From Citrifermentans bremense (lineage in GTDB: Bacteria; Desulfobacterota; Desulfuromonadia; Geobacterales; Geobacteraceae), in the NCBI RefSeq assembly GCF_014218275.1, contig NZ_AP023213.1, positions 1,404,001-1,468,000 of the forward strand: DNA of 64,000 nucleotides, read 5' to 3'. The notes beneath the pieces were generated by a model. It was not told where the DNA came from. It did not search any database and worked only from the letters and a program-made list of their open reading frames with translations. Shown here piece after piece: positions 2,295-3,386 of the stretch. Within the stretch, counting starts at the first letter, position 1, and every line of letters begins with the position of its first letter. Both the position numbers and the translations under genes were made by a program.

Positions 2295-3002
2295 ATGGAC
2301 GCTACATTGGTGCAACGAGCATACACTGCTGTCTTGGAGCATTTCATGAAGAGCGGACGGGCTCCTCATTATACGGAGCTCGCTGCAATTCTCGGAGTGT
2401 CACCTGAAGAAGCCAGACAGGCGCAGCACCAGGCCGCGGAATCTTCCATCGGCTGCTGGTTTGCCAAAGACACGGACTACGTCGAGTCCTGGGCCCCTTT
2501 CTCCAACCTGCCGACCCAATACCTCGTGACCATCGAAGGGGAACAGAAATGGTACGGCCAGTGAGGGCTCGAAGTGCTGGCCGTGCGCTGGCTTTTCCCT
2601 CGTAAAGAGATCCACATCGAAACCAGATGCCTCGATTGCGGGGACCCGATCCGCATCCGCATGCGTGACGACGAGATCCTCGAGGTTGATCCCCCTACCG
2701 CCGTCGGACACATGAATCTCCCCTTTGCGAAGGTCTTGACGGGAGCAGTGAGCTGGGGCGCGGGTTGAAGCCGCATGAACCTCTTCCGGTCGGAAGATCA
2801 TGTGAAGAATTGGGCGCTTTACAATCCAGATTCGGCTGACTCCATCATGCCCTTGTCCACCTGGGCGGAAGTCTTCAGTGGCCCCCTTTGCACGAGTCGC
2901 CTGCAGCCTGATTATCTCTCCCGTATCCACGAGCACGCCAGCCAATTGGTAGCGTCGCTAAAGAAACTGGGGAAAGAGGGCCCCTTCTGGATGCCGGAAT
3001 GA
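2295..3002 (+). CDS. MerB-like (alkylmercury lyase family) selenoprotein with two in-frame UGA codons
   Basis: One reading frame of 236 codons. It starts at an ATG behind GGGAGGA and contains TGA at codon 90 (2562-2564) and codon 158 (2766-2768) before the final TGA. The N-terminus is a winged-helix-like domain (YTELAAILGVSPEEARQA). The rest aligns by eye with organomercurial lyase MerB: IEGEQKWYGQ-U-GLEVLAVRWLFP matches the stretch around MerB Cys96, RCLDCGDPIRI matches Cys117, and WGAG-U-SRMNLFRSEDHVKNW matches the stretch around Cys159. Both UGAs therefore sit where the two catalytic cysteines belong, and codon usage and similarity continue through each. MerB enzymes protonolyse carbon-mercury bonds with these cysteines. 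SECIS-like hairpins follow both UGAs. A doubly nonsense-mutated pseudogene is the alternative, but hits at exactly these two codons by chance are unlikely. Confidence 0.85.
2574..2588 (+). promoter_or_regulatory. Candidate bacterial SECIS hairpin 1
   Basis: GTGC/GCGC stem with the 7-nt loop TGGCCGT, which carries GG at +15/+16 after the UGA ending at 2564. An outer GAGGG (2563-2567) can pair with CCCTC further down. Geometry is like SelB-binding hairpins, where loop guanines lie about 15-20 nt past the UGA. Confidence 0.6.
2782..2797 (+). promoter_or_regulatory. Candidate bacterial SECIS hairpin 2
   Basis: Perfect 6-bp stem TCTTCC/GGAAGA closing a GGTC loop. The loop begins 20 nt after the second UGA (ends 2768). 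The GGUC loop and distance closely match the SelB recognition loop of E. coli fdhF mRNA. Confidence 0.75.
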
Positions 3003-3050: not shown

Positions 3051-3386
3051 AACTTCCAAATCGCTGTCTGTAACTTCTAAATCACGATCTACAACTTGTA
3101 ACCTGCGATCGACAACTTCTAAACCGCGATCAACAATTTATAAATCGCGAGCTACAACTTGTATATTGCAGTTGGTAAGTTTTCAATCGCAATTCATAAC
3201 TTCCAAATCGCGATCGATAAGTTACAAATTGCGATTCACATTTAATAAACTACGGTTTACAAGTTGTAAATCGCTCCTTGTATTTAATCTATCGCGGTTT
3301 ACAGCTTACAGATCGCAGTTGATAAGTTACAACTCGCAGTTTGCCGCTTGTATGTCGCGATCGACAAGTTGTGCGACTCGTGTCAG
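3051..3386. repeat. Array of sixteen degenerate 21-bp tandem repeats
   Basis: Units are exactly 21 bp apart with no indels. An approximate consensus is AACTTGTAAATCGCGATCGAC, with a central ATCGCGAT-like palindrome. The array is clearly AT-richer than its surroundings. Because 21 is a multiple of 3, one plus-strand frame stays open as a heptapeptide repeat, but it lacks a convincing start and is probably not translated. Confidence 0.9.

Follow-up and report, generated by a model that had tools for sequence, protein, structure and literature searches.

A MerB-family gene of Citrifermentans bremense with UGA codons in both catalytic cysteine columns and a predicted two-selenocysteine product

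We analysed a window of 64,000 nucleotides (nt) from Citrifermentans bremense (assembly GCF_014218275.1, contig NZ_AP023213.1, positions 1,404,001 to 1,468,000 of the forward strand; positions below are counted from its first letter), in which a gene of the MerB (alkylmercury lyase) family lies on the plus strand at 2295-3002, its one frame interrupted by two in-frame UGA codons. Predicted to be read through as selenocysteine (Sec), the frame comprises 235 codons and ends at a third UGA (3000-3002), and a ribosome-binding-like GGGAGG, recognised by eye, stands at 2282-2287, 7 nt 5' of the ATG. The first UGA (2562-2564) is residue 90 and the second (2766-2768), which is preceded by a Gly codon, is residue 158. 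A sequence-only reading of this DNA had joined the interrupted pieces into a single gene, placing the two UGA codons at MerB Cys96 and Cys159 and holding Cys117 to be kept, and all of this stands: the 235-residue readthrough frame is present, and when its protein is aligned with MerB sequences of solved structure, Cys96, Cys117 and Cys159 fall opposite residues 90, 112 and 158, respectively. The same alignment adds a point absent from that reading, namely that Glu93 (codon at 2571-2573) occupies the column of Asp99, the catalytic acid of MerB. Cys112 opens a Cys-x-x-Cys motif with Cys115 (CLDC, 2628-2639).

With Cys in place of Sec, the readthrough protein scores 71.5 bits against the Pfam MerB family PF03243 (cut-off 27), and its predicted fold matches MerB structures over 191-192 residues at about 18% identity. 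It falls short of the NCBIfam cut-offs for canonical MerB (33 against 200 bits for lyase_MerB, and 38.8 against 193 for PRK13239), and in the place of the canonical Cys96, Asp99 and Cys159 it has UGA at 90, Glu93 and UGA at 158. The gene is the sole PF03243 match in its own genome; across the 28 genomes that carry such a gene, every PF03243 match contains an in-frame TGA in 26, the other two (G014 and G097) also holding UGA-free members.

The same two UGA codons recur in relatives from other genomes. A pattern scan of named public genomes returned 197 relatives, the best 80 of which were retained, so that the tallies describe the nearest relatives; the aligned set had 119 rows from 114 loci, of which nine lacked one or both columns and 110 were readable at both. 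At the columns of Cys96 and Cys159 these 110 genome-derived sequences have TGA/TGA in 94 cases, Cys/TGA in 12, Cys/Cys in four and nothing else, as a selenoprotein would lead one to expect; counted as distinct proteins the numbers are 84, 12 and 4, the 94 rows including ten pairs of identical proteins, presumably from genomes shared by two collections. An initial single-protein search of genomes confirmed none of eight candidate stretches. Matches were present in six of 58 genomes (the window's own and its relatives), with two in-frame TGA codons in four (the window's, G014, G023 and G030), and in 36 of 395 genomes of the phylum at E <= 1e-10, 23 of them with a two-TGA match; in two further genomes of that set, G423 and G436, the gene lies in two pieces with one TGA each. 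Judged by their record titles, which mostly denote metagenome-assembled genomes with one named strain (Desulforhabdus sp. TSK), the relatives come from many deltaproteobacterial groups, Chloroflexi, Acidobacteria, Actinomycetota, Gammaproteobacteria and a Nitrospirae bin. In a tree of 76 sequences, whose long branches make the deep order unsure, the two-UGA family forms one supported clade (59 rows, 99/97), and the Cys/UGA label needs at least six changes, so that Sec and Cys have replaced each other repeatedly at column 90. The sequence 3' of each UGA is under purifying selection: the ratio of nonsynonymous to synonymous differences per site (pN/pS) against four near relatives is 0.26-0.37 past the first and 0.24-0.29 past the second, and against two more distant relatives, for which synonymous differences are near saturation, 0.42-0.68. 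The survey also turned up a MerB-like family of about 300 residues in the same phylum with Cys at both columns and neither of the hairpins described below (L049, L051, L052 and L053), as well as a distant MerB relative with Cys96, Asp99, UGA159 and an FRSE-type hairpin (L016/L138, G023:C1:1804344-1804868), whose genome also holds a two-UGA gene.

Comparison of the relatives places a hairpin resembling a Sec insertion sequence (SECIS) right past each UGA. In the window, the first (GCUGGC-CGUGC-GCUGGC, 2576-2592, plus strand) has its loop 17 nt past UGA 1 and follows the consensus GCUGGC-xGUxx-GCUGGC, and the second (UCUUCC-GGUC-GGAAGA, 2782-2797, plus strand), overlapping the codons for FRSE, has its loop 19 nt past UGA 2 and follows the consensus CUCUUCC-GGUC-GGAAGAG; its GGUC loop is similar to the one in E. 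coli fdhF. Of the distinct sequences with UGA at column 90, 82 of 84 have a complete hairpin 1 (81 with the loop G-U) versus 3 of 16 with Cys there, and the six inner pairs of hairpin 2 are present in 96 of 96 sequences with UGA at column 158 (95 with the loop G-U) versus none of four with Cys, which ties each hairpin to its own UGA. For hairpin 2, covariation across 91 sequences, seven of them from a second two-Sec clade discussed at the end, gave 31 cells changed on both sides where shuffles gave 9.7 (0 of 500 shuffles reaching 31), and the window's copy is stabler than shuffles (z -3.35). Its innermost pair is C-G where the protein reads FRSE, G-C where it reads FACE (five gammaproteobacterial loci and one actinomycetotal locus) and U-A where it reads FWSE, so RNA pairing is kept while the protein residues vary. 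Hairpin 1 is nearly invariant, being 99.6% paired across 78 sequences. Scanned against Rfam, the gene yielded a single match, at chance level (E 4.5), Rfam's coverage of such hairpins being unchecked.

The window's genome encodes the means to read such codons: selA, selB, selD and a tRNA-Sec (74.9 bits) were all found, as the Sec interpretation presupposes. Of the 28 carriers, 27 have SelB above cut-off (the genome of the other is 85% complete), and so do 353 of 395 genomes of the phylum, so that its presence is necessary and not telling for carriers. One in-frame TGA also interrupts the selD gene of the window's genome (L135, G000:C1:3892030-3892947), which makes SelD another likely selenoprotein.

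Two trivial explanations can be weighed at this point. The first, that an ordinary merB has decayed by two chance UGA mutations or that the codons are sequencing errors, would account for the broken open reading frames (ORFs) which are all that the standard code yields from the window copy, and could draw on the transposase genes and duplicated stretch that adjoin the gene. It would have to explain as well the recurrence of both codons across several phyla, in 84 distinct genome-derived proteins, the purifying selection past each UGA and hairpins that accompany UGA; we give it next to no credence and regard it as refuted by the 84 proteins together with the hairpin-UGA association. The second, a variant code reading UGA as tryptophan or cysteine, comes from the protein database, where a search gave 186 matches, 120 of them listed. 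Among 32 database proteins aligned, the window's included, 17 have Trp at both columns, as a gene call under code 4 would yield; at column 90, Cys stands in 11 (counting the window protein, whose UGA was written as C), Ser in three and Val in one. The Trp count comes from protein entries and not from their DNA, and in the 110 genome-derived sequences it is Cys, not Trp, that alternates with UGA; the window's genome has Sec machinery and hairpins past each UGA. A variant code is rejected on the Cys alternation and the Sec genes, with hardly any probability left. Ten of the 32 proteins terminate short of column 158, and P0038, P0063 and P0088, named organomercurial lyase by their source, likewise end right before the second UGA; these entries look like N-terminal pieces from an ordinary gene call.

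Carriers of the gene also tend to carry hgcA, a gene of mercury methylation, which was found in the window's genome. In the 395 genomes of the phylum, hgcA at E <= 1e-60 (117 genomes, counted by hand) is present in 20 of 25 carriers versus 97 of 370 non-carriers (Fisher p 1e-7), and within taxonomic families 20 hgcA-positive carriers were observed versus 13.9 expected (permutation p 0.0008). The 25 carriers include G423 and G436, with their split genes; if these are counted as non-carriers, the figure is 19 of 23 (p 0.0006). At the looser threshold of E <= 1e-30 it is 20 of 25 versus 106 of 370. Part of the association is driven by families f38 and f94, in which the only hgcA-positive genome (1 of 12 and 1 of 5, respectively) is a carrier; family f14 lacks it (3 of 6 versus 3 of 7), and in f17 the lone carrier is without hgcA while one non-carrier has it. 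According to a survey of mer genes, HgcAB is encoded in none of the genomes that have MerB and lack MerA (PMC8261052), against which 20 of the 25 two-UGA carriers have hgcA, a comparison that covers hgcA alone and not the carriers' MerA. G014 is apparently Geobacter bemidjiensis Bem. G. bemidjiensis Bem is reported both to methylate mercury and to degrade methylmercury (PMC9948709); G014 holds the two-UGA gene and an ordinary merB, so the strain's methylmercury activity can be credited to neither.

For the two-Sec gene, the certainty is as high as sequence comparison can provide, and the two-Sec MerB interpretation offered by the sequence-only reading is supported. We consider it probable that the product is a two-Sec protein of the MerB fold cleaving the carbon-metal bond in methylmercury or a closely related compound, a carbon-mercury lyase being the likely prediction. 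The frame would be read through both UGA codons to give the predicted MerB fold, with SelB binding each hairpin as its bacterial SECIS element; the metal would be drawn by the two selenolates out of its complexes with thiols or sulfide, Glu93 at the place of Asp99 would supply the proton that frees the hydrocarbon, and the bound Hg(II) might afterwards be passed to a thiol, perhaps of the CLDC pair. Two selenolates, deprotonated at cell pH, would grip mercury more tightly. The gene is probably a stand-alone detoxifier in anaerobes, many of them with the mercury-methylation gene themselves. More tentatively, it may be an overlooked and widespread bis-selenolate demethylase by which methylators undo the product of HgcAB, explaining part of the anaerobic demethylation called "merB-independent".

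A number of observations weigh against this reading. The Asp99 column is Glu in 109 of the 110 genome-derived sequences (the exception, L016, has Asp), so that proton transfer and substrate may differ, and the Cys-x-x-Cys at residues 112-115, which 95 of the 110 have (91 of the 94 with UGA at both columns), is absent from 15, including three of the 94. Both features could be turned towards a different function, in which the two-Sec protein binds and passes on a soft metal, for example as a carrier of Hg(II) or methylmercury or as a sensor, without cleaving a carbon-metal bond: the catalytic acid is altered, the extra cysteine pair could help form a four-ligand soft-metal site, and no mer gene was found among the ten neighbouring ORFs scanned. 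Since the MerB core is retained, with a fold match over 192 residues, since Glu still offers a carboxylic acid where the proton donor sits, and since the divergent second two-Sec clade keeps Asp99, we find such a function unlikely. Among the 32 database proteins aligned, Ser stands at column 90 in P0002, P0010 and P0011, and Val in the fragment P0026. The outermost pair of hairpin 2 is unpaired in 20 of the 91 sequences, the window's among them; hairpin 1 shows little covariation because it hardly varies, and the window's copy alone is no stabler than shuffles (z 0.12). The hgcA association is partly phylogenetic, weakens at the curated cut-off (18 of 25 versus 96 of 370, within-family p 0.005) and holds at the level of the genome, not the neighbourhood, being an association and not functional proof.

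The neighbourhood points the same way. The ten scanned ORFs, from about 14 kb around the gene, give no mer operon context, and three of them are without a family; the commonest neighbour family, which by eye has cysteine motifs of the iron-sulfur type, occurs at only 14 of 80 homologous loci and adjacent (<=300 nt) in six. A conserved operon is ruled out, no family exceeding those 14 loci, and the two-UGA gene is apparently a solitary one. Of the 86 near neighbours on the same strand, 85 were scanned with Pfam (a very long one was omitted); the cysteine-rich CCG domain occurs in five and B12-binding domains in two, with no mer or ATP-binding cassette (ABC) family among the 25 listed of 107 families. 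The B12-binding domains, together with the five of 25 carriers that lack hgcA, could speak for a selenoenzyme whose substrate is another organometal or organometalloid (of tin, lead or arsenic, or a natural metal-carbon compound), comparable to the system proposed for SaoL, the known MerB-like selenoprotein, which is named as the organometallic lyase of a Sec-assisted organometallic (SAO) operon. Transporters are not regular neighbours (a cluster resembling ABC ATPases lies within 6 kb at five of 80 loci and adjacent at none), and hgcA is enriched among carriers, so that we judge this substrate class improbable. In the window itself, the flanks comprise two IS200-like (Y1_Tnp) transposase genes upstream (893-2001 and L002:17109-17684) and, downstream, genes for a rhodanese and a sensor kinase. 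One of the transposase genes has its 3' end within a 146-bp direct duplication (1708-2001), and a degenerate 21-bp tandem repeat, AACTTCTAAATCGCGATCTAC, with about 75% matches, directly follows the two-UGA gene (3051-3160 and 3185-3238).

Should the carbon-mercury lyase reading hold, its interest lies in the chemistry. Selenium holds mercury much more firmly than sulfur does, and harm done to selenoproteins is considered a main route of methylmercury toxicity; an enzyme gripping mercury by two selenolates would make a tool of that weakness. A recent survey of methylmercury breakdown drops sequences without Cys96, Asp99, Cys117 and Cys159 (PMC12874090), and such a filter, together with database entries that end right before the second UGA, would make the family easily missed, so that the picture of methylmercury degraders in sediments may be incomplete. 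The enzyme's share in anaerobic demethylation is now testable. We found no two-Sec MerB in the literature searched, the two key papers of Haft and co-workers, which may mention one, lying outside its coverage, and no mention of the second two-Sec clade in the parts of the literature covered.

Among known systems, the closest in fold is MerB itself (PF03243; 3f0o, 5c17), in which cleavage of the Hg-C bond is aided by H+, Cys96, Cys159 and Asp99 (PMC4525700, PMC8261052). The window protein shares with it the predicted fold, the two metal-ligand columns and the Cys117 column, and differs in having predicted Sec in each of the ligand columns, Glu instead of Asp99, the extra Cys-x-x-Cys, only about 18% identity and neighbours among which the scan met no mer gene. 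The best fold match, MerB2 (5c17), likewise departs at position 99, where it has Ser in the alignment, but has Cys in the 96 and 159 columns. Sec in the alkylmercury lyase family, which the sequence-only reading had mentioned, is real, but concerns SaoL, where Sec is at the 159 position only. In the available part of a 2026 review of 119 prokaryotic selenoprotein families and subfamilies, SaoL is the sole MerB entry, with a CU motif and a single Sec (PMC13188914). SaoL (NF040728, SAO system MerB-like organometallic lyase) shares with the window protein, where it is predicted, Sec at the 159 column (PMC13188914), and differs, as two loci of the phylum above the SaoL cut-off illustrate, in its Cys96, its Asp99 and the CU pair at 159, where the window protein has UGA at 96 too and Gly rather than Cys before UGA 2. 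The window protein reaches 44.1 bits against NF040728 (cut-off 140), and this score and the UGA at column 96 rule out an identity with SaoL. The nearest parallel in the use of two UGA codons is the second, divergent MerB clade (seven loci: L166-L169, L177, L179 and L180), which lies separately on one side of a fully supported branch (100/100), its placement being unsure, and whose genes are not among the matches found in 36 genomes of the phylum; the hairpin past its second UGA is of the FWSE or FRSE type. Like the window's family it has UGA at both columns and a hairpin past the second, and unlike it, it has kept Asp99 (as in UAVDAF) and carries extra N-terminal sequence.
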